From Leucobacter sp. UT-8R-CII-1-4 (GTDB lineage Bacteria; Actinomycetota; Actinomycetes; Actinomycetales; Microbacteriaceae): DNA of 64,000 nt. This document shows, one piece after another, positions 34,196 to 54,683 of this stretch. A model generated the notes under the pieces. The model did no database searches, was not told where the DNA came from, and saw only the letters and a program-made list of their open reading frames with translations. The stretch lies in assembly GCF_030010235.1 (NCBI RefSeq), contig NZ_JASCRS010000003.1:310001-374000 (forward strand), read 5' to 3'. Position 1 is the stretch's first letter. Each line of letters starts with the position of its first letter. The position numbers and the translations under genes were made by a program.

Positions 34196-34879
34196 TCAGC
34201 GCTCGGTTTCGAGGGAGTCGACGAGCAGGGTTTCTGCGCGGTGCAGATGCGTGGTGAGTAGCTCGCAGGCTCTGGTTTCTTCGCCGCCCTCGAGTGCTTG
34301 CAGAATGAGAGCGTGCTCGTCGCCAATGAGTTCGGGGTGCAATAGTCTGCGGCCTTGCACCTGAGCCATGCACAATCGCACCTCAGAGAGAATGCGGCGG
34401 TAGAGCACGCTCATGCGGGGGCTGTTGAGCGCGTCGACGATCGAGAGGTGAAATTCAAGATCATGCTCGACGATGGCGCTCGGGTGTTCGCTGCGTAGGG
34501 CGAGAATCTGGTTGTTTGCTGCGTGAGCTCGACTTGGCGCGTGCCGAGCCTCGGCAAGTTCGCGCAGTGCGGAAGACTCAAGTCTGCGCCTGGTCTGGTA
34601 GATGTCGTGAACGGCATCTGAGTCGATTGTGAGCACCCTCGCGCTTCGGTTCGCGGTGCGTTGGAGCAGGCCCTCGGCGGTGAGCTTTTCGATTGCGGCT
34701 TTTGCGCTTGGCCGAGCGATTGCGAATTCGCTGGCGACGAGAGCCTCGGTTACCGCAGTGCCTGGCGCGAGCGTACCGGCGAAGATTGCTTCGCGCAGGC
34801 GGCCAGCAACGGCGTCGACCACGCCGCGAATATTGAGCTCGGTGCCGAGTTGCAGGGCAGGGCTGGGATTTGCTGGCAT
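34196..34879 (-). CDS. GntR family regulator, FCD-type (LldR-like)
   Basis: A 227-residue regulator. N-terminal winged HTH (about 15-85) has LREAIFAGTLAPGTAVTEALVASEFAIARPSAKAAIEKLTAEGLL; the C-terminal all-helical FCD domain (about 95-220) includes EHDLEFHLSIVDA. FCD proteins commonly sense lactate, glycolate or other organic acids. It is divergent from the D-lactate-type dehydrogenase at 35001, and TTGTC-A-GACAA lies between, so it is very probably the dehydrogenase regulator. Confidence 0.9.
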   Translation of the reverse strand: MPANPSPALQLGTELNIRGVVDAVAGRLREAIFAGTLAPGTAVTEALVASEFAIARPSAKAAIEKLTAEGLLQRTANRSARVLTIDSDAVHDIYQTRRRLESSALRELAEARHAPSRAHAANNQILALRSEHPSAIVEHDLEFHLSIVDALNSPRMSVLYRRILSEVRLCMAQVQGRRLLHPELIGDEHALILQALEGGEETRACELLTTHLHRAETLLVDSLETER

Positions 34880-34909
34880 GGCAGTAGCGTAGCGCAGTTG
34901 CCATTCAGG

Positions 34910-34925
34910 TATAGTTGTCAGACAA
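34910..34925 (+). promoter_or_regulatory. Promoter -10 with FCD-GntR operator for the D-lactate-type dehydrogenase
   Basis: TTGTCAGACAA (34915-34925) fits the FCD/GntR consensus TNGTNNNACNA exactly and overlaps TATAGT (34910-34915), a fair -10 box. Binding here would block transcription of the gene at 35001. Confidence 0.6.
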
Positions 34926-35000
34926 TCTTAAATGCGCTGTTGCATACACGAACCGCCAAACCCGGTTGCGACGCCGCAAAAGTGACAAAGGAGCACCCCG

Positions 35001-37847
35001 ATGGTCGCACCGGCGCGAGTCGAGTCACCACTCAGCACGCTAGAGAGTGACGAGACAGAGCAGCTCAGCAGATCGATCGATCGATTCGCCTACGCCCACG
35101 ATGCCTCGCACTACCTCCTTGTTCCGCAAGAAGTGCTGGTGCCCAAAAGCGCTGACGGAGTTTCTGCCATTTTCGAAGCGGCGCAGCAGGCGGGCCTCAG
35201 CATCACATTTCGCTCAGGTGGCACGAGCCTTTCCGGCCAGGGAGTAAGCGGCGAGGTGCTCGTAGACACCAGGCGTAACTTCCGGGGCATTCGAGTCTCA
35301 CAAGACGCAAGCCAGGTGATCGCCGAACCTGGCGCCACCGTGCGCCAAGTAAACACTCGGCTGCTGCGCCACGGCCGCAAACTTGGCCCCGATCCAGCGA
35401 GTGAAATCGCCTGCACAATTGGCGGCGTGATCGCCAACAACTCAAGCGGCATGGCCTGTGGCGTTGAGCAGAACAGCTACCGAACCGTTGAATCGCTGCT
35501 GTTAGTGCTGCCAAGCGGAACTGTGCTCGACACCGGATCCGCTGATGCCGACAAGCAATTGCGAAGCCAGGAGCCCGAGATTTATCAGGGACTCATCAAA
35601 TTGCGCGAGCAGTTGCTCGCAGAACCCGCGCTCGTTGAGCGAGTACAAGCCTTTTTCAGCATGAAAAACACAATGGGCTACGGAATTAACTCGCTGCTCG
35701 ATTTTGAAGACCCCGTGAAAATCCTTGAGCACCTTGTTATCGGCAGTGAGGGCACCCTCGCGTTTGTCGCCGAAGCCCGATTCGCAACCGTACCGATTCT
35801 GCCCGCCATTGCAACGGGCCTATTGGTGTTTCGCACACTTGCCGACGCGACAGCGGCGCTGCCGCAGCTCGTCGAAATGGGGCTCGCGACAATCGAACTG
35901 CTCGATTCAACCTCGCTTCGGGTGGCGCAGGGACTCAGCGACGTACCAGCTCTCATTACCGATATTGCGGTGGATCAGCACGCCGCCTACCTGGTTGAGA
36001 TTCATGCAACCGATGCGGCCTCACTGCAAACACGCAGCGCAGAAGCGCTTGAGCAATTAGCCAAGCTGCCCCTAGTCTCGGCGCCAAACCTCACCGAAGA
36101 TGCGAGCGAGCGAGCTTCGCTCTGGCATGTGCGCAAGGGGTTGTACGCCGCCATCGCCGGGGCGAGGCCCTCTGGCACAACGGCACTGCTTGAAGACGTA
36201 GTGGTGCCAGTTGAACGACTGTACGCGACCTGCCAAGGCTTGGCCGAACTCTTTGAGAAACACGGCTACGAAAATGCGGTGATCTTCGGTCACGCCAAAG
36301 ACGGCAATATTCACTTCATGCTCACTGAACGCTTTGATAGCCAGGCCGGAATCGACCGACATCAGGCTTTCGTCGAAGACATGGTCGAGCTCATTCTGGC
36401 GCAGGAAGGATCTCTCAAAGCCGAGCACGGAACCGGGCGAGTAATGGCACCTTTTGTGCGCAGACAATACGGTGACAAACTCACCGACTTGATGTGGGCA
36501 ATCAAACGACTGATCGATCCCAACGGTCTACTCAACCCAGGGGTAGTGCTGAGCGAGGACGCCGATTCATACGTGCGTCACCTCAAAGTTTCGCCGAAGG
36601 TTGAGTCGGAGGTCGACCGCTGCGTCGAGTGCGGATATTGCGAACCAAGCTGCCCGAGTAAAGACCTCACCCTCACCCCGCGACAGCGAATTGTCTTGCG
36701 CCGCGAGATTGCGGCAGCCGAACAGCGCGGTGACATTGCCTTGCTTGCAGAACTTCGCGATTCATACGAGTACGACGGAGTGCAGACCTGCGCAGTAGAC
36801 GGCATGTGTGGGGTCGCGTGCCCTGTTGATATCAACACCGGAGACCTGGTGCGCAGACTGCGCGCCGAGACTGCAAACCCGGTTGAGAATGCAATTTGGA
36901 ACACCGCAGCAAAACACTGGGGCACCGTGACCTCGCTCGGCGGGGTAGCGCTGAGCGTCGCAAAGGCAGTGCCGGCCCCGCTCGTGCGCGGAGTCACCAG
37001 AGTGGGCCGGGCTCTGCTCGGTGCGGATTCAGTGCCGCTCTATGACAGTGGCCTGCCCGCCGGAGGATCCTCGAACCGAAAGGCGCTCGCAGCAGCTAGC
37101 TCGCAAGATTCGGCTCAGGTGGTGTTTTTTGCCGCTTGTATTGGCGAAATGTTCGGCCCGGAGACTGAGCATCCCGGATCACGCAGCGCCGTGCAAGCGG
37201 TGCTGCAGCGTGCAGGCATCGCCTATGCTGTGCCCGATGACGCCGGAGGGCTGTGCTGCGGCACCCCCTGGAAATCGAAAGGTCACCTCGACGGGTATCG
37301 CGTTATTTCTGAGCGCACACTGGCCGCGCTCTGGGCCGCGAGCAATGAGGGCGCGTTGCCAGTGATCTGTGACGCAGCATCGTGTTCTGAAGGCCTTGAG
37401 GTGATGCTTCGGTCAGCGCTTGTTGAGCACCCCGAATATCGCGCCCTGCGCGTCGAAGACGCGACAGTGTTTCTCGCTCGAGAAGCGCTGCCCGGGCTTA
37501 GGGCAAAGCGAAGTTTTGGCAGAGTTGCGGTTCATCCAAGCTGCTCAACTACAGCGCTCGGCGCTACTCCAGCGCTTCGCGAGATTGCCGATTTTGTCGC
37601 CGATGAGGTGTACGTGCCAGATGCTTGGGGCTGTTGCGCGTTCGCGGGAGACCGAGGCATGTTGCACCCCGAACTCACCGAGAGCGCCACCGCTGCAGAG
37701 CGTGCAGAGTTGCGTGAAGCAGAACAAGATCGCGGCAGGTTTGATGCCTACGTGTCAGCGAACCGTACCTGCGAGATCGGTATGTCACGTGCCACCGGAA
37801 TGCCGTACCGTCACGTACTCGAATTGCTTGAAGAGGTCACTCGTTAA
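35001..37847 (+). CDS. FAD-linked D-lactate (2-hydroxyacid) dehydrogenase fused to Fe-S/CCG module
   Basis: A 948-residue fusion. The first half (about 1-520) is a GlcD/VAO-type FAD domain with RSGGTSLSGQGVSG (about 71-84) and GSEGTLAF. Then comes a 4Fe-4S ferredoxin module starting CVECGYCEPSC (Cys about 541) and CAVDGMCGVACPVD (Cys about 597), and finally CCG-type domains with GGLCCGTPW (about 750) and WGCCAFAGD (about 875). This is the GlcD-GlcF architecture of membrane-associated D-lactate dehydrogenases feeding electrons to the quinone pool. Lactate or glycolate cannot be told apart. Strong AAAGGAG before ATG 35001. Its GntR/FCD neighbour is the likely regulator. Confidence 0.9.
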   Translation: MVAPARVESPLSTLESDETEQLSRSIDRFAYAHDASHYLLVPQEVLVPKSADGVSAIFEAAQQAGLSITFRSGGTSLSGQGVSGEVLVDTRRNFRGIRVSQDASQVIAEPGATVRQVNTRLLRHGRKLGPDPASEIACTIGGVIANNSSGMACGVEQNSYRTVESLLLVLPSGTVLDTGSADADKQLRSQEPEIYQGLIKLREQLLAEPALVERVQAFFSMKNTMGYGINSLLDFEDPVKILEHLVIGSEGTLAFVAEARFATVPILPAIATGLLVFRTLADATAALPQLVEMGLATIELLDSTSLRVAQGLSDVPALITDIAVDQHAAYLVEIHATDAASLQTRSAEALEQLAKLPLVSAPNLTEDASERASLWHVRKGLYAAIAGARPSGTTALLEDVVVPVERLYATCQGLAELFEKHGYENAVIFGHAKDGNIHFMLTERFDSQAGIDRHQAFVEDMVELILAQEGSLKAEHGTGRVMAPFVRRQYGDKLTDLMWAIKRLIDPNGLLNPGVVLSEDADSYVRHLKVSPKVESEVDRCVECGYCEPSCPSKDLTLTPRQRIVLRREIAAAEQRGDIALLAELRDSYEYDGVQTCAVDGMCGVACPVDINTGDLVRRLRAETANPVENAIWNTAAKHWGTVTSLGGVALSVAKAVPAPLVRGVTRVGRALLGADSVPLYDSGLPAGGSSNRKALAAASSQDSAQVVFFAACIGEMFGPETEHPGSRSAVQAVLQRAGIAYAVPDDAGGLCCGTPWKSKGHLDGYRVISERTLAALWAASNEGALPVICDAASCSEGLEVMLRSALVEHPEYRALRVEDATVFLAREALPGLRAKRSFGRVAVHPSCSTTALGATPALREIADFVADEVYVPDAWGCCAFAGDRGMLHPELTESATAAERAELREAEQDRGRFDAYVSANRTCEIGMSRATGMPYRHVLELLEEVTR

Positions 37848-37894: not shown

Positions 37895-38860
37895 ATGCCA
37901 ATCGTCGCAGAGATTCTTTCGCTCATGAACGAAAAAGAAGCAGATTCCGATTACGCCAGGCCAGGTGAAGCGCCTGTGTCGATCTCTGACGCAAGACGAT
38001 TCCATGAGGCCGATATCGTGAGTTTCGCTCCGCTTGATTCTCGAGACGCGGTTGGCTCGGTCGAAGCAGTCAGCTTTTCCGGTCCACTTGGCGAAATCTC
38101 CGCTCGTTTGTACCGGCCGTTGAACGCTGCAAACCCAGCTACCCTGGTCTGGTTTCACGGTGGCGGTTGGGTAACCGGAAGCCTCGACACCGCAGATGCA
38201 GTGGTGCGGGCGCTTTGCGCAAGAGCGGGCATTGCCGTGCTTTCAGTCGACTATGCGCTGGCTCCCGAGCAGTTCTGGCCGGCGGCAGTGCACGATGCTC
38301 GTGCCGCGCTGCTCTGGGCGGCGAGTCATCGCGATCAGCTCGGCGGTGAAGGCTCGATTCTGGTTGGCGGAGACAGCGCAGGTGGAAATCTCGCTGCCGT
38401 GCTCGCAAACACGGAGACCGATGTGGTCGAAGGGCAAGTGTTGCTGTACCCGGTAGTCGACCTTGATATCGCTACAACCGCGTACCCCTCTCGGGTCACC
38501 AACGGGGTCGGATGCTTTGTTGCCTGGGCAGATATTGAGTGGGCGATTCGCGAATATGCGCCCGACTTCACCAGAGCGGGGGATCCGCTACTCAGCCCAA
38601 TTCGCGCAGCGAATTTTGCTGGGGTGGCGCCAGCAATTATCGCCGCAGCCGAATACGATCCGCTTCGCGACGAAAACCGGGCCTATGCCAAGGCTCTTGA
38701 ATTACACGGTGTCGAAGTGAACTATTTTGAGTTCGCAGGGTTGGTGCACGGTGGATTCGACATGATGCAGCCGGTACCTGCCGTGAATGTCGCAATGAGC
38801 GATATTGCCGAAGCGCTGCGGGTGCTCGTCGCCCAACTGGGCGACGAGCACAGCGGCTAG
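37895..38860 (+). CDS. Alpha/beta hydrolase, hormone-sensitive-lipase-like esterase
   Basis: A 321-residue esterase. Oxyanion motif HGGGWVTGS (His about 88), nucleophile GDSAGGN (Ser about 161) and the Asp/His region EYDPLRDENR...GLVHGGFD complete the triad. HSL-type enzymes cleave short-chain esters, often on natural products. AAGGGGAAA precedes ATG 37895; a 47-base gap to the dehydrogenase. In the sugar cluster it may de-acylate the substrate. It ends 13 bases from the convergent enolase-superfamily gene. Confidence 0.85.
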   Translation: MPIVAEILSLMNEKEADSDYARPGEAPVSISDARRFHEADIVSFAPLDSRDAVGSVEAVSFSGPLGEISARLYRPLNAANPATLVWFHGGGWVTGSLDTADAVVRALCARAGIAVLSVDYALAPEQFWPAAVHDARAALLWAASHRDQLGGEGSILVGGDSAGGNLAAVLANTETDVVEGQVLLYPVVDLDIATTAYPSRVTNGVGCFVAWADIEWAIREYAPDFTRAGDPLLSPIRAANFAGVAPAIIAAAEYDPLRDENRAYAKALELHGVEVNYFEFAGLVHGGFDMMQPVPAVNVAMSDIAEALRVLVAQLGDEHSG

Positions 38861-38873: not shown

Positions 38874-40010
38874 TTAGTCGATGAACAGCGAAGCGCCCCG
38901 GGTGTAGTGTGCGATGGCTTCGCGATCCCACGTAATGCCAAGGCCGGGGCCAGTCGGAATATCTAGCATTCCCTGCTCATCGAGTGACCAGCCGCCGGAG
39001 ACAATGTCGTCAATGTAGGCAGAGCCGGTGCAGTACTCGACGAAGTCGGTGCGCGGCAGGGCTGCGGCCGTATGTAGATCTGCGGCAAGCCCCACGGCGG
39101 TGTTCCAGCCGTGCGGAATGAGGCGCATGCCTGCCTCTTCTGCGCGTCGGCCGATCGCCATCGACTCGTCGATGCCGCCGTTCTTGGTGACGTCTGGCTG
39201 CACAATGTCGAATGCCCTGGCGTCAATGAACGGGGTGAAGCTTTGCCTGCGGGTGAGTGTTTCAGCTCCGCTGATCGGTACGGGTGAGTGGGTGGTCAGT
39301 TCGACGTACCCGGCAAGATCGTCGGGGCTTAGCGCTTCTTCAAACCAAGCTACGTTGTATTCGGCCAGCATGTGGGCTGTGTTGATTGCCCACTTGTAGC
39401 CGTGTGGCCAAAAGCCATCGCTGCCTCCGGCGTCAACTGCCAGCACGGCATCGGGGCCGACGGCCTCGCGCGCTGCCGCAATAATCTTGCGATCGGTTGC
39501 TGCCGAATCGCGGCCGAATCGGCCCCAGCCAATCTTGAATGCGCGGAAACCCTCTGAGGCATAGCCCTCAAGGCGGGGCACCATTATCTCTGGGTCGTCC
39601 ATCAAGAGTGAGGCATACGGCAGCACTTTCGAGCGGTAATTGCCGCCAAGCAGACGGCTGATCGGCATGCCAGTAACCTGCCCGAAAATGTCCCAGAGCG
39701 CGGTATTCACGCCGCTGATGGTGTGGGTGATCGAGCCGCCTCGACCCATCCAGAAGTTTGCCTGATGTAGGCGCTCGGTGATCGCCGTTGGTGAATCAAA
39801 TTCCATGCCAACCAGCAAATCGTTGAGCACTGAGAGTGCACCAGCAACCAAGTCTTGGTGGGTGAATACGCTGCCGAGCCCGGTGTGGCCTTCGTCGGTG
39901 TGCACGGCGATTAGGGTGTGCAGGGAATCGTTTGGGTTGAGCTCATTTGCCCAGCCGCCCTTGGGCGTTGCGCCGATGAGCCCCGCGCTCACTACGTTAC
40001 GAATCTTCAT
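38874..40010 (-). CDS. Enolase superfamily (mandelate racemase/muconate lactonizing) enzyme, probable sugar-acid dehydratase
   Basis: A 378-residue enzyme with capping domain (about 1-125) and TIM barrel. Metal ligands: Asp193 in VDAGGSDG, Glu of FEEALSPDD (about 220) and Glu of GAETLT (about 245). The barrel-strand-2 motif reads KIGWGRFG instead of the KxK of muconate enzymes, and IPHGWNT near residue 320 supplies a His. Acid-sugar dehydratases of this type turn an aldonate into a 2-keto-3-deoxy acid. ATG 40010 is favoured over GTG 40022. Divergent from the transporter operon, sharing a 188-base control region. The second copy at 49470 is a relative. Confidence 0.85.
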   Translation of the reverse strand: MKIRNVVSAGLIGATPKGGWANELNPNDSLHTLIAVHTDEGHTGLGSVFTHQDLVAGALSVLNDLLVGMEFDSPTAITERLHQANFWMGRGGSITHTISGVNTALWDIFGQVTGMPISRLLGGNYRSKVLPYASLLMDDPEIMVPRLEGYASEGFRAFKIGWGRFGRDSAATDRKIIAAAREAVGPDAVLAVDAGGSDGFWPHGYKWAINTAHMLAEYNVAWFEEALSPDDLAGYVELTTHSPVPISGAETLTRRQSFTPFIDARAFDIVQPDVTKNGGIDESMAIGRRAEEAGMRLIPHGWNTAVGLAADLHTAAALPRTDFVEYCTGSAYIDDIVSGGWSLDEQGMLDIPTGPGLGITWDREAIAHYTRGASLFID

Positions 40011-40079
40011 TGATGGGAACACTTTCTCTCGTCGCGCCCTCTTCTTCGAGGGCTGGCAGACAGCTGCACTTTGAAGAAG

Positions 40080-40139: not shown

Positions 40140-40198
40140 GCAGATACTTCTAACACCTGCCAAAGTCCGAAAGTTCAATGATGAACAGGAGAGTGGCC

Positions 40199-41740
40199 AT
40201 GAAGCCAGAACGAGTAATGCGGGGACGTTGGAGGTTCGCGGGTATCGCGGTACTCGCATCTGCCGCACTGATGTTGAGCGCATGTAGCTCGCCAGCCACC
40301 GAAGGAGGAAACACGGGTGGAGACCGCGGCGGTCAAGTGATCGTTGCTAACGCTGAACCGCCCACGGCAGCGTATTGGGATCCAGCCGCCTCCTTCGGTC
40401 TTGTCGATGAGCAGGTAGCCTCGCTCGTATTCGACACGCTGCTATCGATGGACGCCGAAGGAAACATCGGCCCCAACCTCGCCACCGAGTGGGAATGGGT
40501 GAGCGACACCGAAATGAAGCTCACACTCCGCACCGATGCGAAGTTCCACGACGGCACCCCCGTGACCGCTGACGACGTAGTCGCTTCACTGAACCGCCTC
40601 ATGCAGCCCGGATCAGAAACCCTCGCAAAGGCAATTCTGCTCACCTCCGGCGAAGCAAGCGCTGAAGGCGACGTCGTGACGATCCGCACCGACCAGCCAT
40701 TTGGCCCGCTTGAAAACTCGCTCGCCGCGGTGTCGATCCTCTCGAAGGCCGACATCGACTCGCCGGACAACTTCAAAAAGGGCGCAAACGGCAGCGGCCC
40801 ATACAAGTTTGTTTCCTACGCGAACGACGACATCACCCTCGAAGCAAACGCCGATTACTGGGGCGGAGCACCAAAGAACGACGGCGTAGTGCTGCGATAC
40901 ATCGCCGACGCTGACGCCCGCCAGAACGCACTGCTCGCCGGCCAGATCGACATCACCACCCGCACCGGCCCGAACTACGTGAACGCGGTCAAGGACAACG
41001 CCGACATTACGGTTGAGTCGGTATCGCCACCGTCGCAGATCGTGATGATCTACCAGCACAATGGTGCACTTGCCGATCTGAAGATCCGTGAGGCTCTGGC
41101 CTATGCGATCGACCGTGAGGGCATTGCAGCGAGCATCATGCACGGCGTGAACAAGGTCGGCTTCAACGCCATCCCAACCACCCTCGCGAGCTACCAGGAA
41201 GCAAGCAACAAGTTCGAGTTCGATCCAGAGAAGGCAAAGAGCCTGCTCGCCGAAGCCGGCAAGTCAGAGGGCCTCACGCTCACCATGGCCACCAGCACAC
41301 TGGTGCCAGGACAGCTGGAAATCGACCAGGCGATCGCGCAGAACCTGAAGGACATCGGCATTGATGTTGAGGTTACCCAGCTTGAGGTCGGCGAGTTCCG
41401 CACGAGCTACCCACAGTACGACCTGAGCATGAACACGCTTGCCTCGTTCAACAACGACCCAAGCTTCATTCTCGCAACCTTCACCGGCGCAACCGGTCAG
41501 GCCGTATTCAACCTGGCTGATCCAAAGGTCGACGAACTCGTGGCAACCCAGAACGCAACCGTTGGCGAAGCACGCAACCCGGCTATCAACGCTGCGGCAA
41601 CCTACATGTGGGACAACCAGCTCACACTCTGGCTGAGCGACGAGACCTGGACGACACTCGTGAACAACCGGGTCACCGGTTACGAACGCAACCCACTGGT
41701 CGGCGAACCGCTGCTGCGGAACGTTTCAGTAGCTAAGTAA
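40199..41740 (+). CDS. ABC transporter substrate-binding lipoprotein, SBP family 5 (Dpp/Opp type)
   Basis: A 513-residue extracytoplasmic binding protein. Signal peptide and lipobox LSAC (Cys about 29) anchor it to the membrane. The mature part carries LATEWEWVSDTEMKLTLRTDAKFHDGTPVTADDVVASLNRLM-type family 5 signature and LREALAYAIDREGIA-like motifs. Family 5 proteins bind peptides, nickel, or some oligosaccharides and glycosides. AGGAGAG before ATG 40199 decides against a start 21 bases upstream. In a sugar-acid operon a glycoside, oligosaccharide or amide-linked sugar is more likely than a peptide. Confidence 0.88.
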   Translation: MKPERVMRGRWRFAGIAVLASAALMLSACSSPATEGGNTGGDRGGQVIVANAEPPTAAYWDPAASFGLVDEQVASLVFDTLLSMDAEGNIGPNLATEWEWVSDTEMKLTLRTDAKFHDGTPVTADDVVASLNRLMQPGSETLAKAILLTSGEASAEGDVVTIRTDQPFGPLENSLAAVSILSKADIDSPDNFKKGANGSGPYKFVSYANDDITLEANADYWGGAPKNDGVVLRYIADADARQNALLAGQIDITTRTGPNYVNAVKDNADITVESVSPPSQIVMIYQHNGALADLKIREALAYAIDREGIAASIMHGVNKVGFNAIPTTLASYQEASNKFEFDPEKAKSLLAEAGKSEGLTLTMATSTLVPGQLEIDQAIAQNLKDIGIDVEVTQLEVGEFRTSYPQYDLSMNTLASFNNDPSFILATFTGATGQAVFNLADPKVDELVATQNATVGEARNPAINAAATYMWDNQLTLWLSDETWTTLVNNRVTGYERNPLVGEPLLRNVSVAK

Positions 41741-41791
41741 CCTCTACCCCTCGGGAAACCGAGAAACTGGTCGCCGAAGGAGGCACCCACT

Positions 41792-45405: not shown

Positions 45406-45420
45406 GCAGAAGAAGGGTTA

Positions 45421-47619: not shown

Positions 47620-48455
47620 CCGAGCACGAGTGTGAACAACTCTCGGCCGCTCCAACTGGTTCTCTCCTTGAGGGGCCTCGGTGGAGTGCGCCCAGTGGGC
47701 GGTTGTCGTGGATAGATATTCCAACTGGGCGAGTGTTTTTACTCGACCCGGCCACAGAAGCGATTCGCAGTTACGACACGGGAATTGCTCCGTTGGGTGC
47801 TGCGCTTCCGCTCGCGGGCGGTGAGTTCGAGTTGGTTGGAGCCGAGGGCATCTACCGTTGGCGACCGGAGTCGACTGCGCAGCTTATCTTTCGCTTTGAT
47901 GATGGTTCCGAACTGATTTCAAACGACGCGAACATCGACCCCTGGGGGAGGCGTTACGTGGGCAGAATGGCTGCAGATGAAGCGCAGGGTGCTGCTGAGC
48001 TTGTGGCGATTGAGATTGATGGTTCAACGCGCACGGTAGCGAGTGGTCTCACAATCCCGAATGGTCTCGCTTGGAGCTCAGACCAAAGTTGGCTCTATTT
48101 TGCCGAGAGCGTCGAGCAGCGTGTTTATCGTGTGCCGACGGGGGCGAAGGGTGAGAGCTGGCACAAGCGCGAGGTTTTGATCCAGCATGACTCGGCGCTT
48201 CCTGATGGAATCTGTATTGGACCAGACGGCAATCTTTGGGTGGCCTGTTTTGGGGGAGCCCGGGTGGAACGTTATTCGCTTGCGGGGATGAAGCTCGGCG
48301 AGTATTCGCTTCCGGTGAGTCAGGTGACTGCTTGCGAGTTTGTCGGTGACGATCTGTATGTGACTACGGCAGCCGAAGGTTTCACTGAATTAGATTGGCG
48401 GCGTGAGCCGCTGGCTGGCAGCCTTTTCCGTTTCCGCGCATTGTCCAGGGCTTGA
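47616..48455 (+). CDS. SMP-30/gluconolactonase family lactonase
   Basis: A 279-residue six-bladed beta-propeller enzyme. Metal ligands expected at Glu of LEGPRWSAP (about residue 19), Asn in the IPNGLAWS turn (about 148) and Asp in LPDGICIGPDGNLWVA (about 197). Family members hydrolyse aldono-lactones to aldonates. It overlaps the upstream SDR and the downstream mutarotase, matching a sugar dehydrogenase, lactonase, dehydratase route. Confidence 0.9.
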   Translation: MTEHECEQLSAAPTGSLLEGPRWSAPSGRLSWIDIPTGRVFLLDPATEAIRSYDTGIAPLGAALPLAGGEFELVGAEGIYRWRPESTAQLIFRFDDGSELISNDANIDPWGRRYVGRMAADEAQGAAELVAIEIDGSTRTVASGLTIPNGLAWSSDQSWLYFAESVEQRVYRVPTGAKGESWHKREVLIQHDSALPDGICIGPDGNLWVACFGGARVERYSLAGMKLGEYSLPVSQVTACEFVGDDLYVTTAAEGFTELDWRREPLAGSLFRFRALSRA

Positions 48456-49408
48456 TGATGAACGCAATTGTGTTGCGCACTCGTGAACTTGAAGTCGCTT
48501 GCGTACCGGAACACGGAATGTTGCTGACTGAAATTGTTCCTACCGCAATTGGAGTGAATCTGCTTTGGCAGCGCCCGAACGCCCCGTTGCATCCGTTCGT
48601 GGATCCGGCACAGGCAAGTTCGACTGGCGATCCTTTTGACGCAGAGGTTTTTGCCGGCGGTTGGTTTGGCATGTTTCCGAATGCCGGGATCCCCGGCGCC
48701 AATGATGTCGATGAACAGATGCACGGAACCTTTCCTCGCTTTGCTTGGCATGTGCTGCAACACGACGACACAAGCTTGAGCTGCGAGCTTGAGGTGGATG
48801 GGCTGCGCGCTGTGCGCAAGGTGCAGCTTGATGGCACGAACGTGCGAGTAAGCACGACGGTAGTGAATCAGGGCGCAATGGATAGGGAAGTGAGTTTCGG
48901 TGAACATCCCTGTTTTGCACGCTCGGTTTTTGCGGGCGGAGAGGTTGCTCTTCGAGCCGCTCGGGCTCACACTACGCCTGAGGTCTCTGAGCCCGGTGCG
49001 AATCGTTTTCTCGCTGGTCAAGATTTCAGCTGGCCGACAGCAATAGAGCGATTGGGCGGTAGTGCGCGAACCGATGTGATTCCGGTTGCAGCCGACGGTT
49101 CGCACGACCACTTGTGTGTCACGCTCGCTGACCCAGAAATCATCTTGACTGCGCCAGACTACGCCGGTTCGGTGCGCATAAGTTCTGATCTGACAAAGAC
49201 GGCTGAACTGCTGTTTTGGCGGCATTTCCGGCCGCCGCGCTCGCCTTGGTGTGGTGACGTGTTTGGTATCGAGATGATGTCGACACCGGGTCGAACGAGA
49301 GATGATGCGCGCGCTGCAGACGCGCTCAGCTGGCTTCGTGCTGGTGGAAAGCTCTCGTGGCACCTTGAAATTCAGTGGCAGGACGATCTGCCGCGCACGT
49401 ATGGTTAA
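48455..49408 (+). CDS. Aldose 1-epimerase-like (mutarotase-fold) protein
   Basis: A 317-residue protein of the galactose mutarotase fold. GEHPCF near residue 150 carries the conserved His, and GGWFGMFPNAG near 68-78 the ligand loop. It interconverts anomers, here presumably of the sugar before oxidation. TTG and two ATGs are possible starts; ATG 48455 overlaps the lactonase stop. Last gene before the TGTTAACA site at 49410. Confidence 0.8.
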   Translation: MMNAIVLRTRELEVACVPEHGMLLTEIVPTAIGVNLLWQRPNAPLHPFVDPAQASSTGDPFDAEVFAGGWFGMFPNAGIPGANDVDEQMHGTFPRFAWHVLQHDDTSLSCELEVDGLRAVRKVQLDGTNVRVSTTVVNQGAMDREVSFGEHPCFARSVFAGGEVALRAARAHTTPEVSEPGANRFLAGQDFSWPTAIERLGGSARTDVIPVAADGSHDHLCVTLADPEIILTAPDYAGSVRISSDLTKTAELLFWRHFRPPRSPWCGDVFGIEMMSTPGRTRDDARAADALSWLRAGGKLSWHLEIQWQDDLPRTYG

Positions 49409-49426
49409 CTGTTAACAATCTATAAT
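49404..49426 (+). promoter_or_regulatory. GTTAAC/TGTTAACA operator with TATAAT for the second enolase-superfamily gene
   Basis: TGTTAACA (49410-49417) sits directly upstream of a perfect TATAAT (49421-49426), in the -35/-10 spacer, preceded by GTTAAC (49404-49409). It matches the site at 40102, so one regulator probably controls both promoters. Confidence 0.55.
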
Positions 49427-49469
49427 TTTTGTCGATTCGACACTCAACGGTGAGAGAACGGAGGGCGAC

Positions 49470-50654
49470 GTGCAGATCAGCGCGGTCGACTTTTTTTACG
49501 CGGCAATGCCGGTAGTGACACTTGATGCAGACGGCAGCCAAGACGCGCTACTGGTTCGCGTGCGCTCTGCCGACGGAGCAGAAGGTTGGGGCGAGTGCGA
49601 AGCCTCCCCGCTCGTATCCATTGCGGCGTTCGTCACGCCACGGTCGCACGGAGTCTGCCAGCCAGTCGCAGCCTCGGTCATCGGCGAGCGACTAGAGTCA
49701 CCAGCTGATATCGCGCGATTGAGCGAAAACGTGCGCCGCAACAGTATGGACCTGCTGCAGGCAGCGCACACCTGGTCAGGCGTAGAAATGGCGCTCTGGG
49801 ACCTGCTCGGCACCCAACTCGGCGCCCCAGTCTGGCAACTACTCGGTTACAAACAAAACATTGCCAAAGACCCCTACGCGTCACTGCTCTTTGGCGGAAC
49901 ACCAGAAGAAACCTTTGAGCGCGGTCGCGCCGCAGTCGAAGCGGGCTACGGCGCGGTGAAGTTCGGTTGGGGCGGCTTCGGCGCTGGATCGCTCGACGCC
50001 GATCAGGCACAACTTCGTGCCGCGCGCGAGGGCGTAAGCGAAGCGAAGCTGATGGTCGACGCCGGGCAAATCTGGGGCGAAGATGTCGATGCTGCCGCTG
50101 CGCGCATCCCGCTGCTAGAAGAAGTGAACGCGCTATGGCTCGAAGAACCATTTAGCCCATACGCCTATCTCGCACATGCCGAACTTGCGCGGCGCTCGCC
50201 GCAGGTGGCGCTCGCTGGCGGTGAAGCCTCACACAACCCAGAAATGGCGAAGAACCTGATTCGCTTCGGCGGCATCCGGTTTGTCCAGATCGATACCGGT
50301 CGTGTCGGCGGCATTGGAGCGTCAAAGGAAATCGCTGATTTCGCGGCAGCCGAGGGCGTTACCTATGTGAACCACTCCTTCACCTCACACCTCGCGCTCG
50401 CCGCCTCGCTGCACTCATTCGCCGGGCAAGCGACGAGCACACTCTGCGAGTTCCCCGCGGGCCTCAGCGAACTCGCGAAGGCCGTCACCGCGACCGCGCT
50501 CGTGCCGGACGAGCAATGGCAGGTGAGCGCGCCAACGGCGCCCGGAATCGGCATCGCCGTGAACCTTGATGCCGTGGCGCCGTATCTGCGGGAGGTAGAA
50601 CTTCGAGTTGATGGGGCGGTGCTGAACGCCGCCGCAATGAGCGTAGGAAAGTAG
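49470..50654 (+). CDS. Enolase superfamily enzyme, second copy, probable sugar-acid dehydratase
   Basis: A 394-residue capped TIM-barrel enzyme. Metal ligands Asp near 196 (VDAGQIWG), Glu in WLEEPF (about 223) and Glu in GGEAS (about 250). Barrel motif KFGWGGFG mirrors KIGWGRFG of the copy at 38874, so both belong to the same subgroup, but the C-terminal base loop is VNHSFTSH (about 301) rather than HGWNT. Different substrates or steps are likely. GGAGGG precedes the GTG at 49470. Own promoter with the shared TGTTAACA site. Followed by an SDR eight bases later. Confidence 0.85.
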   Translation: MQISAVDFFYAAMPVVTLDADGSQDALLVRVRSADGAEGWGECEASPLVSIAAFVTPRSHGVCQPVAASVIGERLESPADIARLSENVRRNSMDLLQAAHTWSGVEMALWDLLGTQLGAPVWQLLGYKQNIAKDPYASLLFGGTPEETFERGRAAVEAGYGAVKFGWGGFGAGSLDADQAQLRAAREGVSEAKLMVDAGQIWGEDVDAAAARIPLLEEVNALWLEEPFSPYAYLAHAELARRSPQVALAGGEASHNPEMAKNLIRFGGIRFVQIDTGRVGGIGASKEIADFAAAEGVTYVNHSFTSHLALAASLHSFAGQATSTLCEFPAGLSELAKAVTATALVPDEQWQVSAPTAPGIGIAVNLDAVAPYLREVELRVDGAVLNAAAMSVGK

Positions 50655-50662
50655 GGAGCAGC

Positions 50663-51418
50663 ATGAGTAACGAGTTTTCTGGCCTTGCCGCGATTGTGAC
50701 CGGCGGCGCATCGGGAATCGGGGCTGCGATTGTTGCCCGCTTGCGTGCGGGTGGGGCGCGCGTGGCGATCCTCGATCGAAATATTGTTGCCGTCGCCAAT
50801 GATGTGCCGGCTTTTCAAGCAGACATCTCAGATGCAGAGCAAGTCCAAGCAGCAGTCGAGGCGGCTGCCGAGCGCCTTGGTGGCATCGACATCGTGGTGA
50901 ACAACGCTGGAATTGGTGCTCAGGGCACCATCGAAGGCAACGATGAGGCCGAATGGCATCGAGTCTTTGACATCAACGTGCTTGGGCTCGTACGGGTTTC
51001 GCGTGCAGCAATGCCGTGGCTTCGCGCATCGCCGCACGCAGCGATCGTGAATACCTCGTCAGTGCTTGCGATTGTGGGGGTGCCTAATCGCGCGTTGTAC
51101 GGCGCAACCAAGGGGGCGGTCTCGTCGCTTTCGCTGCAGATGGCGGCCGACCACATGGCCGAAGGCATTCGCGTGAATGCGGTGCTGCCGGGCACCGCAG
51201 ATACGCCGTGGATTCAGAACCTAATGGATCAGGCCGACGACCCAGCTGCCGAGCGCGCGGCGCTCGAAGCTAGGCAGCCGCACGGGCGACTGGTCAAGGC
51301 TGAAGAGGTGGCCGAGGCGATTGCTTATCTGGCTGGCCCCCTCGCCGGATCAACTACTGGAACCACGCTTGTGGTCGATGGGGGACTGAGCGGCTTACGC
51401 CTTCCGGCAAAAAGCTGA
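50663..51418 (+). CDS. SDR oxidoreductase, possible 2-keto-3-deoxy acid dehydrogenase
   Basis: A 251-residue short-chain dehydrogenase: TGGASGIG (about 13-20), NNAGIGAQG, NTSSVLA, RALYGATKGA (Tyr/Lys pair) and DGGLSG. In the fucose/rhamnose type routes an SDR oxidises C4 of the 2-keto-3-deoxy acid before a fumarylacetoacetate-type hydrolase cleaves it. Its position next to a dehydratase fits this. Eight bases after the dehydratase, good AGGGAG site. Ends before a terminator. Confidence 0.83.
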   Translation: MSNEFSGLAAIVTGGASGIGAAIVARLRAGGARVAILDRNIVAVANDVPAFQADISDAEQVQAAVEAAAERLGGIDIVVNNAGIGAQGTIEGNDEAEWHRVFDINVLGLVRVSRAAMPWLRASPHAAIVNTSSVLAIVGVPNRALYGATKGAVSSLSLQMAADHMAEGIRVNAVLPGTADTPWIQNLMDQADDPAAERAALEARQPHGRLVKAEEVAEAIAYLAGPLAGSTTGTTLVVDGGLSGLRLPAKS

Positions 51419-51427
51419 GCCTCCGGG

Positions 51428-51580: not shown

Positions 51581-51585
51581 AGGGG

Positions 51586-52263
51586 CTAGTAGGTTGCTCG
51601 GCCGCCGCTGATGTCGTAAACCGCTCCGGTTGAGAAGCTGCAGCGGTCGGAGGTCAGCCAGGCGATGAGTTCGGCGACTTCGTCGGCGCGGCCAACTCGG
51701 CCCATCGGGATCAGGCTCGTGATGTGGGCGAGCACTTCTGGGGCAGTGCTCTCGTTCATTGGAGTCGCCACTACCGCCGGGGCGATGGCGTTTGCGAGCA
51801 CACCATGGGGTGCGAGCTCCTTGCCCAGAGTCTTGGTGAGTCCGATTACGGCTGCCTTCGAAGCGGAATAGGGTGCCATGTTTGGATTGCCGTCTTTGCC
51901 TGCCATGCTCGCGATGTTTACGATTCGGCCCCAACCTGCGTTAATCATGCCTGGAGAAAACGCGCGGCAAAGGTTGAATGTGCCGGTGAGGTTTACCGCA
52001 AGGGTTTTCTGCCAGTCTTGGTCGCTGATTTCCCAGGTCGGCTTTCCCTCACCGACGATGCCGGCGCTGTTCACCAGAATGTCGATAGCTCCCACCTTTG
52101 CGGCGGCATCAGCAACTGAGGCTGAGTCGCTGACATCTACGCGAAAGTCTGCGTCGGGTGAGAGATCGAAGGTGATCACCTCAATGCCGTCCTCGGCTAG
52201 TCTCGCGGCGGTTGCTTGGCCAAGGCCGCTGCACCCACCAGTCACTACTGCTTTCCGCGACAT
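51586..52263 (-). CDS. SDR oxidoreductase
   Basis: A 225-residue short-chain dehydrogenase with TGGCSGLG (about 8-15), NSAGIVGEG, NIASMAGKDG, APYSASKAA and the final TGAVYDISGG. The Rossmann Asp of FDLSPDADF suggests NAD preference. Two neighbouring ATGs (52263 and 52266) follow GAAAGGA; the 52263 start has the better spacing. It is divergent from the IclR gene and is probably its target. One of three SDRs in the cluster. Confidence 0.85.
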   Translation of the reverse strand: MSRKAVVTGGCSGLGQATAARLAEDGIEVITFDLSPDADFRVDVSDSASVADAAAKVGAIDILVNSAGIVGEGKPTWEISDQDWQKTLAVNLTGTFNLCRAFSPGMINAGWGRIVNIASMAGKDGNPNMAPYSASKAAVIGLTKTLGKELAPHGVLANAIAPAVVATPMNESTAPEVLAHITSLIPMGRVGRADEVAELIAWLTSDRCSFSTGAVYDISGGRATY

Positions 52264-52301
52264 CATTGTCCTTTCATTGCGGCTTACTCTTGATTGCAAT
52301 A

Positions 52302-52316
52302 TTCCATTAAATGAAA
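52302..52316. promoter_or_regulatory. Imperfect palindrome, candidate IclR operator
   Basis: TTCCATTAAATGAAA: CATT/AATG arms around A, with outer TT/AA. It lies in the 116-base gap between the divergent SDR and IclR genes. IclR-family sites are short palindromes of this kind. TTGGAATTT (52330-52338) follows. Confidence 0.35.
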
Positions 52317-52379
52317 TCAAAGTCAAACAATTGGAATTTGCCGAGCGCTAGTAAACTGATCGAACGCAGAAGGAGAGTC

Positions 52380-53147
52380 ATGAGCGAAGAGCGAGCAGTC
52401 GGTGCCGACCGCGTGCTGTTGGTGTTGAGTGAATTAGGCAGACATCCCTCTGGTGTTTCACTTGAAGACCTCGCAATTGCTGTTGATGCGCCGAAGTCGA
52501 GCGTGCATCGAGCGCTTGCAACGCTGCGCAAGCGCGGATTTGCCGCTCAAGACGGGCGTGGAAGCTACGTCGTTGGAGACGAACTGCTACGCCTTGCGTT
52601 CACGGTCCACGAGCAGCGACCCGAGAGCGCAAGGGTCGAACCAGCACTGCAACGCTTGAGCGAACGCTTTGGAGAGACCGTGCATTTTGCGGTGCTTGAT
52701 GAGGCCGAGGTGGTGTATCGCGCGAAAGCGGATCCACCCTCGGGCGGAATGCGCTTGACCTCGGTGGTCGGCGGGCGAAATCCTGCTCACGCGACCGGAG
52801 TTGGCAAGCTGCTTCTCGCCGATCGTTTTCGTGACAGTGATTCATTTCTGCAGTGGGCGAAGGCTCGCGCATTGCCCGCGCGCACAGATTCGACGCTGAC
52901 TGACCCGGCGAAGCTTTGGCACGAGCTCGAGCAGATTCGCGAAAGCGGTTTTGCGTTGGATCGAGAGGAAAGCGAGATTGGAGTCGCCTGTATAGCTTTA
53001 CCGGTCTCGCTATCGGCGACAGCCTCAATCGACGGTGCAGTGAGCGTGAGCGCGATTGCGGTACGCACACCACTCGGTGAATTGATTGACCGTGTTGAAG
53101 AGTTCCGGACCGAACTTGGCGCCTTGGCGGTTCGGCTGCGCCCCTAA
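52380..53147 (+). CDS. IclR family transcriptional regulator
   Basis: A 255-residue regulator. N-terminal HTH (about 5-65) with SLEDLAIAVDAPKSSVHRALATLRKRGF; effector domain (about 80-250) including HATGVGKLLLA and REESEIGVACIALPV. AAGGAGAG precedes ATG 52380, so the upstream in-frame extension is rejected. Adjacent to sugar-acid genes; IclR proteins such as KdgR sense 2-keto-3-deoxy acids. Convergent with the GntR gene, 16 bases apart. Confidence 0.9.
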   Translation: MSEERAVGADRVLLVLSELGRHPSGVSLEDLAIAVDAPKSSVHRALATLRKRGFAAQDGRGSYVVGDELLRLAFTVHEQRPESARVEPALQRLSERFGETVHFAVLDEAEVVYRAKADPPSGGMRLTSVVGGRNPAHATGVGKLLLADRFRDSDSFLQWAKARALPARTDSTLTDPAKLWHELEQIRESGFALDREESEIGVACIALPVSLSATASIDGAVSVSAIAVRTPLGELIDRVEEFRTELGALAVRLRP

Positions 53148-53163
53148 CCGGGGCGGGGCAAAG

Positions 53164-53754
53164 TCACTTTGCGGGCAGATGGCTGAGGTGTTTGCGCATC
53201 GCGTCGGCGGCAGCCTGTTGCTGCCCGGACTCAATAGCTTCTACCAGCGTCGTGAGATCGGCGAGGGCCTGTGTGCGCGTTGACTGCAATGAGGCGGTGC
53301 GGCCGCGAGAAGCGCTAATGCGCTGCGTGAGGCTCGCGTAAAGCTCGATGATGACGCTATTTGCGCTGGCCTGCATCACCCGCGAGTGAATGCTCTGATC
53401 GTGAGCGGCGAAGCCTGCCTCATCATTAATCGCGTTGGCTGCGCCCGCAAGTTGGGCGCGCAGATGCGTGAGGTCATCGGCGGTGGCGTGCGTGGCTGCT
53501 TCGCTCGCGGCCCAGGGTTCGATGAGTAGGCGTGCGGCTAGAAGCTCTGAGGCGTCAGTAGCGCGGACATAGATACCGGATCGGTCGCGTGCCTCGAGCA
53601 CGCCGTGCTCAATGAGGGTCGCGATTGCTCGGCGCACGCGGGGGCGTGAGGCTTCGAAGTGTGTGGCGAGCTCACGCTCTGAGGGGAGCCGCTCGCCGGG
53701 TCGATACTCCCGAAGGCTGATCAGGGCGCGCAGTTGCTCGACAAGTGTTGTCAT
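53164..53754 (-). CDS. GntR family regulator, FCD-type
   Basis: A 196-residue regulator, shorter than the other two in the cluster. HTH (about 1-65): LREYRPGERLPSERELATHFEASRPRVRRAIATLIEHGVL. FCD-like C-terminal half contains HDQSIHSRVM and ends in MRKHLSHL. AAAGGAG precedes ATG 53754. It is divergent from the fumarylacetoacetate-hydrolase-like gene with TGGT...ACCA palindromes between, so it likely controls it. Confidence 0.9.
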   Translation of the reverse strand: MTTLVEQLRALISLREYRPGERLPSERELATHFEASRPRVRRAIATLIEHGVLEARDRSGIYVRATDASELLAARLLIEPWAASEAATHATADDLTHLRAQLAGAANAINDEAGFAAHDQSIHSRVMQASANSVIIELYASLTQRISASRGRTASLQSTRTQALADLTTLVEAIESGQQQAAADAMRKHLSHLPAK

Positions 53755-53793
53755 TTGCGTGCTCCTTTGTTTTTGTGTCTGCGATAACTGTAC

Positions 53794-53846
53794 TTGACGC
53801 AGTCGCACCTGGTTACATAATCTGGTACTACCAGTTTGGTTAACCA
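53794..53846 (+). promoter_or_regulatory. Promoter and GntR-type operators before the FAH-family gene
   Basis: TTGACG (53794-53799), 16 bases, CATAAT (53816-53821). Just downstream lie TGGTACTACCA (53823-53833), which fits TNGTNNNACNA exactly, and TGGTTAACCA (53837-53846). Both would block transcription of the gene at 53874; the divergent GntR at 53164 is the likely binder. Confidence 0.55.
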
Positions 53847-53873
53847 GACGCGAATGTGTGCAAAGGAGACACC

Positions 53874-54683
53874 ATGCGTATCGCTAGAATTCAGACTTCA
53901 GAGGGTCCTCGTCTTGCAGTGCAGCAAGATGAACGCTGGCTTGCCGCCGCGCCCGCAGGAGTAACACTCCCGCAAATGCTCGCTCGGGGTGCTGCCTTTA
54001 AAGCTGAAGGCCCAGAACTTGAGGGTGAGGTGCTAGCCCCGCTCATTCCCGGCAAGATCGTTGCCATTGGCCTCAACTACATGGACCACATTCGTGAAGC
54101 CCAGGCAGAGGTTCCGAAAGCTCCATTGGTATTTACCAAGTTCCCATCAAGTGTTACCGGCCCAGACAGTGATGTTGTGATTGACCAGGCGCGTACCCAG
54201 CGGGTCGATTGGGAAGTCGAACTTGCCCTAGTGATTGGCAAACGGGCTCAGCACGTTCAGATCGAAGAAGCTATGGACTACGTCTTTGGCTACACCATTG
54301 CAAACGATATTTCGGCGCGAGACATGCAATTCGGCGATGGGCAGTGGGTACGCGGCAAAAGCCAGGACACATTCTGTCCGCTTGGGCCGACAGTTGTCAC
54401 CGCTGACGAAGTTGCAAACCCTGGTGAGCTTGCGCTTTCAACCCGAGTCAACGATGTTATTAAGCAAGACTCAAATACCCGAGAGTTGATCTTCGGTCTT
54501 GCCGAACTCGTGGCCTACTGCTCTCAGAACTTCACCCTTGAACCCGGTGATGTGATCCTGTCTGGCACCCCGTGGGGATGCGGTGAATTCATGACACCAG
54601 CCGAGCACCTACAGCCCGGCGACATCGTTGAGTGCCGCATTGAAGGCCTCGGCTCGCTCCGCAACACGGTCATCGCCGCCTAG
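53874..54683 (+). CDS. Fumarylacetoacetate hydrolase (FAH) family enzyme
   Basis: A 269-residue metal-dependent C-C bond hydrolase. GLNYMDHIREAQ, the metal pair in DWEVELALVIGK (Glu about 113-115), NDISARDMQ and SGTPWGCG are the family hallmarks. In L-fucose and L-rhamnose type pathways such an enzyme splits 2,4-diketo-3-deoxy acids to pyruvate plus lactate. Its position after three SDRs and two dehydratases fits this. AAAGGAGA precedes ATG 53874; an earlier in-frame ATG is rejected. Own regulator and operator. Confidence 0.88.
   Translation: MRIARIQTSEGPRLAVQQDERWLAAAPAGVTLPQMLARGAAFKAEGPELEGEVLAPLIPGKIVAIGLNYMDHIREAQAEVPKAPLVFTKFPSSVTGPDSDVVIDQARTQRVDWEVELALVIGKRAQHVQIEEAMDYVFGYTIANDISARDMQFGDGQWVRGKSQDTFCPLGPTVVTADEVANPGELALSTRVNDVIKQDSNTRELIFGLAELVAYCSQNFTLEPGDVILSGTPWGCGEFMTPAEHLQPGDIVECRIEGLGSLRNTVIAA

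Follow-up and report, generated by a model that had tools for sequence, protein, structure and literature searches.

A possible accessory route for catabolism of an N-acylated sugar or sugar acid, encoded by a gene block with a PIG-L protein and an enolase-superfamily protein in Leucobacter

The stretch of DNA analysed here, referred to as the window, comprises 64,000 nucleotides of Leucobacter sp. UT-8R-CII-1-4 (contig NZ_JASCRS010000003.1, positions 310,001 to 374,000; G000:C4:310001-374000 in our numbering), from a genome of 3.01 Mb in 9 contigs; gene coordinates are window positions. Between MetQ/N/I-like genes (31334–34189) and an aminotransferase gene (54703–55920) lies a block of 20 genes (34196–54683) in which a family-5 ATP-binding cassette (ABC) importer and a PIG-L family de-N-acetylase-like protein accompany enzymes of sugar-acid catabolism. 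Such a cluster had been proposed in an earlier note on this DNA, and the proposal is supported, the enzyme classes named there all being present by Pfam. Unless stated otherwise, family assignments are those of Pfam, and a percentage given alone after a gene of the block is its identity to the copy in the congener G003, and one after a gene of another genome is its identity to the window homologue.

The left edge of the conserved block is formed by GntR1 (34196–34879, minus strand; GntR and FCD domains; syntenic in G003, 74%), a GntR/FCD regulator. It is followed on the plus strand by a flavin-dependent protein of 948 residues (35001–37847; FAD-oxidase_C, FAD_binding_4 and Fer4 domains; 77%) and a hormone-sensitive lipase (HSL)-type esterase of the Abhydrolase_3 family (37895–38860; HGGG and GDSAG motifs; 67%), and on the minus strand by MR1 (38874–40022; 85%), an enolase-superfamily protein of the mandelate racemase subgroup and a probable acid-sugar dehydratase. 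The first of these three had been taken for a lactate-type dehydrogenase but is in fact a 2-hydroxyacid dehydrogenase-like protein with FAD and 4Fe–4S domains (FAD/FeS enzyme), whose nearest models, GlcD and YdiJ, both match under their cut-offs (189 bits against 568 for NCBIfam glcD).

Twelve plus-strand genes then form an uninterrupted run (40178–51418) in which seven of the eleven junctions overlap and the other four measure 8–61 bp. The run begins with a complete Opp/Dpp-type importer set: a family-5 solute-binding protein (40178–41740; SBP_bac_5, 264 bits; 89%, and 51% and 57% to homologues in G289 and L027, described below), two BPD_transp_1 permeases of Dpp/Opp B type (41792–42718; 94%) and C type (42715–43665; 90%), and two ATPases with ABC_tran and oligo_HPY domains, of OppD type (43662–44618; 85%) and OppF type (44611–45405; ATG start at 44611 inferred, the listed open reading frame (ORF) running from 44446), the oligo_HPY match of the latter being under the cut-off (20.7 against 27.1 bits). 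None of the NCBIfam equivalog cut-offs for DppA, OppA or NikA is reached by the importer. Next come the PIG-L protein (45421–46143; 91%), a second GntR/FCD regulator, GntR2 (46143–46844; 87%), the short-chain dehydrogenase/reductase SDR1 (46837–47619; 74%; GTG start at 46837 inferred, the listed ORF running from 46771), which is a possible sugar 1-dehydrogenase, an SMP-30/SGL lactonase (47616–48455; SGL, 189 bits; 64%), a mutarotase-like protein (48452–49408; 63%), a second enolase-superfamily protein, MR2 (49470–50654; 79%; nearest solved structure 2hzg, 466 bits), and SDR2 (50663–51418), which is related to 2-keto-3-deoxy-L-fuconate (L-KDF) 4-dehydrogenase and BDH2 (119 bits to PDB 2ag5). 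From its spacing the run is operon-like, and importer, PIG-L and sugar-acid enzymes are likely co-transcribed, as the earlier note had held. To the right lie SDR3 (51586–52326, minus; 79%), an IclR regulator (52311–53147, plus; 69%), with which conservation in G003 ends on this side, the GntR/FCD regulator GntR3 (53164–53808, minus) and a fumarylacetoacetate hydrolase (FAH)-family protein (53856–54683, plus; FAA_hydrolase, 255 bits). Among the matches listed, no block protein tested reaches an NCBIfam equivalog cut-off.

Profile comparison relates the mutarotase-like protein to a DUF4432 protein in a sister cluster (probability 96%) and more weakly to Pfam aldose epimerase (61%); no curated model matches it (DUF4432 18.2 bits, below the cut-off of 32.5), a scan of genome contigs with it returned no relative, and a single-sequence model yielded no usable fold (predicted local distance difference test (pLDDT) 35).

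The block is accessory in the genome. Among 60 relatives searched, PIG-L (E ≤ 1e-20) occurs in two, the genome itself and G003, both among the 37 of the same genus, while protein P0001 occurs in 2 of 40 and phylum-wide in 2 of 396 genomes (its own and G541, 41%). In the class- and phylum-wide searches only a few top candidates per genome were scored (7 for PIG-L, 4 for MR1, 5 for P0001), and the resulting counts are lower bounds. In G003, 17 genes from GntR1 to IclR are syntenic with the block at 63–94% identity, permease B, PIG-L, permease C, the binding protein, GntR2 and MR1 standing highest and the lactonase and mutarotase-like protein lowest. SDR2, GntR3 and FAH were not found in the 45-kb G003 stretch that holds this copy (no match above 100 bits for GntR3). 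In 41 genomes of the genus, FAH (E ≤ 1e-60) occurs in three, the other two proteins being 45–46% identical and partial 54% matches in G003 falling just under the limit, and the FAD/FeS gene occurs in seven, exceeding 65% only in G003. The aminotransferase gene at 54703 is present in 33 of these 41 genomes, which places the right edge of the block near 54.7 kb. No empty site was seen: in all five genomes taken, no tested window neighbour of the aminotransferase gene lay within its 20-kb surroundings.

The PIG-L protein matches its Pfam model with 95 bits (cut-off 28) and carries the AHPDD and HPDH motifs, the residues of which have catalytic roles. Its AlphaFold model (pLDDT 94.4, pTM 0.92) is matched best in the PDB by diacetylchitobiose deacetylases (8bgo, E 7.9e-19, 28% identity). 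A BshB-like role in the synthesis of a thiol cofactor was considered and disfavoured, with scores under the cut-offs and PIG-L linked to MR genes instead.

By homology, the pairing of MR1 with PIG-L recurs in other Actinomycetota and in Alphaproteobacteria. Class-wide, PIG-L (E ≤ 1e-30) is found in at least 5 of 394 genomes, its own included. One of these, G289, a genome of 1.5 Mb from another family of the class, has PIG-L together with MR1 (60–61%) and a family-5 importer (51–61%), and its locus also holds a zinc-dependent alcohol dehydrogenase homologue, a DUF4432 protein, a second PIG-L, a GntR2-like regulator (44%) and an esterase (31%); near the PIG-L of G301 only weak esterase matches were found. 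A Nanopelagicaceae metagenome-assembled genome (MAG; L024) encodes an alcohol dehydrogenase (66% to that of G289), MR1 (61%), PIG-L (57%) and MR2 (48%). In a Hyphomicrobiales MAG (L027), MR1 (52%) and MR2 (55%) occur with a family-5 importer, GntR, SDR, Aldose_epim, AstE/AspA-type and M81 proteins, the M81 gene adjoining MR2, and the PIG-L gene sits between those for the importer's two permeases (4584–7101), which ties it tightly to uptake. Sinorhizobium medicae (L029) has GntR, SDR, MR1 (54%), an importer with an SBP_bac_1 protein, and PIG-L (49%), and an Acidobacteriaceae MAG (L058) has MR1 (45–46%), PIG-L (35%) and an M81 gene near the latter. In Paenibacillaceae, PIG-L is accompanied by more distant MR proteins (24–33% to MR1). 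Chance co-location of importer and PIG-L is ruled out by the synteny in G003, G289 and L027.

A scan of named genomes, from which the best 80 of 549 PIG-L relatives were kept, gives 22 loci with the closest PIG-L proteins. An MR homologue is near PIG-L in 12 of these, against 1 of 14 intermediate loci and none of 44 distant control loci, the control loci varying in length from 3 to 21 kb. Nine of the 22 hold a zinc-dependent alcohol dehydrogenase homologue and five a CUT1-type permease homologue. Plasmid searches returned only relatives of 31–38% identity, which come from haloarchaea, Embleya (where the record is unannotated at this point) and Chelatococcus. Gfo/Idh and sugar isomerase genes are among the annotated neighbours of the PIG-L gene in three haloarchaeal cases, one set also containing MR, M81 and creatininase-family genes. 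On a Haloprofundus salinisoli plasmid (L111, 1–10699), a distant PIG-L gene lies with genes for Gfo/Idh, a sugar isomerase, a sugar ABC importer, MR/MLE, M81 and creatininase-family proteins.

MR1 residues K163, D197, E228/E229, E254, D277 and H304 are invariant in 9 of 9 aligned MR1 and MR2 proteins. A lysine, three acidic metal ligands and an aspartate–histidine pair, on the strands to which these residues are assigned, form the pattern of the mandelate racemase subgroup, and MR1 is probably an acid-sugar dehydratase. Neither the solved relatives of MR1 and MR2 nor NCBIfam gives a definite sugar. MR1 occurs at 56–61% identity in at least 19 of 394 genomes of the class (Actinomycetes), its own included. 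MR2 homologues were met in L024, in L027, beside MR1 in G336 (54%) and beside PIG-L in G288 (49%).

Of the 17 genomes with MR1 besides the window genome and G289, 14 neighbourhoods were fetched (G169, G200 and G229 were left out). A GntR2-like gene (34–41%) is present in 12 of the 14 and an SDR in 10, best matched by SDR1 in eight (35–39%) and by SDR2 or its relative in two. Seven large genomes share one arrangement, scanned for domains in a representative (L156), with a DegT-type protein, MR1, alpha-amylase and Ceramidase_alk-like segments, a CUT1-type importer, a GntR2-like regulator and an SDR1-like protein; in L156 an ORF of 956 residues with both Ceramidase_alk and alpha-amylase domains (10527–13397) adjoins MR1, and L153 has the alpha-amylase alone. 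Apart from these seven and the three loci with an Amidohydro_3 protein named below, four remain: G264, with alpha-amylase and DegT-like genes but without a ceramidase match, G177, with an alpha-amylase-like gene, and G265 and G336, with MR1 close to the end of a contig. In G170 and G432, whose MR1 relatives are 57–62% identical, a 2-keto-3-deoxy-6-phosphogluconate (KDPG) aldolase and a PfkB kinase adjoin MR1. The G170 aldolase (L157) reaches 231.6 bits as Eda, above the cut-off of 156.05, and its kinase is nearest, under the cut-off, to models of the aldolase/kinase fusion and of kinases for 2-keto-3-deoxygluconate (KDG) and 2-keto-3-deoxygalactonate; both G432 proteins (L149) are assigned by Pfam. 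Aldolase and kinase adjoin MR1 in 2 of the 14 loci; this is the strongest indication that MR1 forms a 2-keto-3-deoxy acid, as it probably does, and it shows that the pathway endings vary.

The importers vary as well. The family-5 importer in the window had been read as a clue to the substrate, a suggestion that does not hold up: CUT1-type binding proteins accompany MR1 in L029 and L156 and an SBP3 protein does so in L157. Because the same core enzyme adjoins importers of three types, the importer family is not a sound guide to the substrate. The same variation weakens the idea, also considered, that a family-5 importer implies a peptide substrate.

The window genome differs from its congener in the end of the pathway. 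A whole-genome search located an SDR2 homologue of G003 (70%) at C1:3439109-3439852, directly adjoining an FAH gene, which disposes of the explanation that the pair is merely missing from G003. The surrounding locus (L165, G003:C1:3428001-3448000), about 0.2 Mb from the G003 copy of the block, holds an alpha-L-fucosidase (Pfam, 299 bits), SDR2, FAH, an aldo/keto reductase, an MR protein, an M81 protein, another FAA_hydrolase-family protein and permease-like ORFs recognised by eye, with a putative binding protein for which Pfam gave no match at 1e-5, and is likely an L-fucose locus. SDR2 and FAH are probably a fucose-pathway-type pair, and since G003 keeps them in this distant locus, it is in the window genome only that they are joined to the block; they look like a fucose-type ending attached to a separate core. 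SDR2 matches the L-KDF dehydrogenase structures 8y11 and 8y46 with 123 bits, in a search that put 46 SDR sequences under 1e-30. Of the R148-T183-R192-R214 motif of type 1 L-KDF 4-dehydrogenases, mapped by eye through the BDH2 sequence, it appears to retain the first arginine, the threonine and the last arginine but not the third residue. Homologues of about 60% identity occur in other settings, beside MR1 with KDPG aldolase and kinase in G170 (59–60%) and, in G289 (L166, G289:C28:47001-65000; 60%), with genes for FMN_dh, Pro_racemase and DHDPS, perhaps a hydroxyproline locus, so that SDR2 alone does not fix the sugar. In the available text of PMC11199699, L-KDF dehydrogenase accepts L-KDF, 2-keto-3-deoxy-L-galactonate (L-KDGal), 2-keto-3-deoxy-D-pentonate (D-KDP), 2-keto-3-deoxy-D-gluconate (D-KDGlu) and cis-4-hydroxy-L-proline.

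From gene content, spacing, synteny, catalytic-residue conservation, the predicted PIG-L fold and the recurrent linkage, all of which are established, we infer the reactions, their order and the substrate of the following route. It is possible, and tentatively our preferred reading, that the block encodes an accessory catabolic route that starts from an N-acylated compound (a sugar, glycoside or sugar acid) and proceeds without phosphorylation of the sugar. The family-5 importer would bring the compound in, and the HSL-type esterase and PIG-L would remove acyl groups, PIG-L taking the N-acyl group before or after oxidation. The mutarotase-like protein, SDR1 and the SMP-30 protein would convert the aldose to the aldonate, which MR1 and/or MR2 would dehydrate, possibly as a 2-amino-2-deoxy-aldonate, to a 2-keto-3-deoxy acid. 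The SDR2 and FAH of the window genome may then oxidise and cleave this acid to pyruvate and a 2-hydroxy acid, which the FAD/FeS enzyme would oxidise. A fucose-type ending is plausible, and if the substrate is a 6-deoxy sugar acid, the fucose/rhamnose-type route stands, with the acyl group removed first.

An amide in the substrate is suggested by other amide-hydrolase families beside MR1 elsewhere: an Amidohydro_3 protein, of a family that includes D-aminoacylases, lies beside or near MR1 in 3 of the 14 loci (G170, G329, G432) and a Ceramidase_alk-like gene in 7 of 14, while neither gives a match above 60 bits in the 44 distant PIG-L loci. The N-acylated substrate of the earlier note has in this way become more likely.

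Several observations count against the proposed deacylation route. The PIG-L model superposes on the hydratase GalB (5cgz) nearly as well as on its best match (E 2.9e-17, TM-score 0.80), and because GalB has the same fold, the fold is no proof of deacetylation; the first histidine of HPDH varies among 25 aligned PIG-L members, S. medicae having IADH. The Amidohydro_3 matches do not exceed 147 bits against an NCBIfam cut-off of 340, the seven ceramidase loci are near-copies of a single arrangement, the ceramidase match is weak (50 bits), the surroundings of PIG-L in L058 contain a 25% match as well, and that these proteins cleave the same bond as PIG-L is a guess. Linkage is also imperfect: in G288 PIG-L (46%) adjoins the MR2 homologue while MR1 lies on a different contig, the PIG-L and MR1 of G210 are more than 2 Mb apart, and around the gene in L025, whose product is one of the PIG-L proteins nearest to that of the window (58%), some 10 kb contain neither an MR nor an importer match. 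The difference between 12 of 22 closest and 0 of 44 distant loci gives p = 1.3e-7, a value that overstates independence because the grouping was made post hoc and 8 of the 12 loci are from Paenibacillaceae. Finally, of the combination that the earlier note had singled out, the importer, PIG-L and MR recur together in G289 and L027, but no match above 60 bits to PIG-L, SGL, the mutarotase-like protein or FAH was found in any of the 14 fetched MR1 loci, so that these four are not obligatory partners of MR1.

The fold shared with GalB and the lack of a PIG-L match in the 14 fetched MR1 loci would fit a plain aldose/aldonate pathway in which PIG-L is a passenger or, with a keto acid as its substrate, a GalB-like hydratase or some other metal enzyme. 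RraA-like aldolases and Amidohydro_2 genes are typical of gallate-type pathways, and PIG-L lies near RraA-like aldolases in Paenibacillus (L033 and L034, which also hold Amidohydro_2) and in Acidobacteriaceae L058. Against this, PIG-L ranks second in conservation between the two congeners and is kept with MR1, at 49–57%, in L024, L027, L029 and G289; it is, moreover, nearest to sugar deacetylases in both sequence and fold, and other MR1 loci hold other amide-hydrolase families. We consider this explanation unlikely.

A second alternative is the route of the earlier note, in which a conjugated or N-acylated 6-deoxy sugar is converted to pyruvate and lactate by a fucose/rhamnose-type pathway and the FAD/FeS enzyme oxidises the lactate. 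All its enzyme classes are present in the window. The FAH protein has H78 and E81 with the same spacing, by eye, as His83 and Glu86 of C785_RS20550, an H-x-x-E pair reported as catalytic for such hydrolases in the available text of PMC6336799, and SDR2 resembles L-KDF dehydrogenases and has its 70% homologue beside FAH in the fucosidase locus. The G003 copy of the block, however, lacks SDR2 and FAH, SDR2 homologues of G170 and G289 sit in other pathway settings, and the block and the fucosidase locus have different MR proteins (25% identity between P0003 and that of L165). The window FAH reaches 226 bits against the NCBIfam L-2,4-diketo-3-deoxyrhamnonate (L-DKDR) hydrolase model, below the cut-off of 500, and is 41% identical to the fucosidase-locus FAH, which reaches 260 bits; the cut-off is strict, being attained in none of 7 genomes searched and none of 14 control genomes, and as matches below it occur in 7 of 7 and 11 of 14, respectively, finding such a match in a genome is hardly informative. 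The FAD/FeS enzyme resembles GlcD and YdiJ, and nothing in the analysis points to the D-series sugar that the note had expected if a D-lactate-type dehydrogenase took part. The 2,4-diketo ending is in keeping with the SDR2–FAH pair of the fucosidase locus, but it is not fixed, two MR1 relatives standing with KDPG aldolase and PfkB kinase. As a whole, this 6-deoxy route strikes us as quite improbable. The weakest alternative, a pentose or pentonate route to pyruvate and glycolate with the FAD/FeS protein, nearest the GlcD model, oxidising glycolate, draws on the Route III of this kind demonstrated in Herbaspirillum huttiense (available text of PMC6336799) and on the acceptance of D-KDP by L-KDF dehydrogenase (that of PMC11199699), but leaves PIG-L unexplained and sits poorly with the KDPG aldolase and kinase beside MR1 in G170 and G432, which suggest a hexonate-type product there, and is very unlikely.

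The preferred N-acyl reading can be extended to a more specific model, which we regard as doubtful: MR1 would be a dehydratase/ammonia-lyase for 2-amino-2-deoxy-aldonates (hexosaminates) at the centre of a widespread amino-sugar route, oxidative and free of phosphorylation, around which importers (family 5, CUT1, SBP3), enzymes for N-deacylation (PIG-L, Amidohydro_3, ceramidase-type) and endings (either FAH or KDPG aldolase with a kinase) would be exchanged for one another in Actinomycetota and Alphaproteobacteria, and perhaps in Acidobacteriota too. Such dehydration by MR1 is conceivable because LhpJ, in the available text of PMC5144071, is an enolase-superfamily protein that dehydrates a 2-amino-3-hydroxy acid. 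If the substrate of MR1 is a 2-amino-2-deoxy-aldonate, its dehydratase/ammonia-lyase activity would be new.

Elsewhere in the window, an SSF symporter, an amidase, an Amidohydro_3 protein and an M20 peptidase (10526–17367) form a second uptake and amide-hydrolysis group. Genes for an IclR regulator, two CoA-transferase subunits and a thiolase (18732–22212) resemble those of beta-ketoadipate-type catabolism, and genes for a branched-chain-type ABC importer, an AMP-binding enzyme, TetR, an SDR and an alpha/beta hydrolase follow in a row (22415–31257). To the right of the block lie two ORFs of 305 and 280 residues (56777–57694 and 57883–58725) with no Pfam match at E 0.1, and proline catabolism genes for a P5CR-like protein, an AraC regulator and proline dehydrogenase (59524–62357).

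None of the protein families is new. Among the matches listed in the open-access literature, no title describes a catabolic cluster of PIG-L with an enolase-superfamily protein, or a recurrent combination of this kind in which importers and amide hydrolases change around MR1. If right, the proposed route would provide a function for an uncharacterised enolase-superfamily branch and for a PIG-L subfamily, and would be a sugar or amino-sugar route common to soil bacteria and small-genome actinobacteria, including the Nanopelagicaceae MAG.

The amino-aldonate model has a counterpart in older biochemistry, the oxidative N-acetylglucosamine (GlcNAc) route via N-acetylglucosaminate, glucosaminate and KDG, for which no relevant paper was found in the open-access literature. 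Each would require a deacetylase, a 1-dehydrogenase and an enzyme that dehydrates the amino-aldonate; the dehydratase of the GlcNAc route is pyridoxal phosphate-dependent, whereas here an enolase-superfamily protein would serve. With diacetylchitobiose deacetylase and BshB, the window PIG-L shares the fold and the AHPDD...HPDH residues, but it is only 24–29% identical to them in structural alignments and, unlike them, has a catabolic setting with acid-sugar enzymes. MR1 and MR2 show the lysine and aspartate–histidine pattern of the mandelate racemase subgroup, whereas LhpJ, the likeness of which to the proposed role of MR1 lies in the reaction described above, belongs to the muconate-lactonizing subclass with two lysines, as far as the available text of PMC5144071 goes. 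The closest likeness in gene content is to Route III for L-fucose, L-rhamnose and pentoses as described in the available texts of PMC6336799 and PMC11199699, a route of which every enzyme class (mutarotase-like, SDR, lactonase, enolase-superfamily, SDR2 and FAH) is encoded in the window. Beyond that description the window adds PIG-L and an esterase, two MR proteins and a family-5 importer, and the congener keeps SDR2 and FAH outside the block, in its fucosidase locus.

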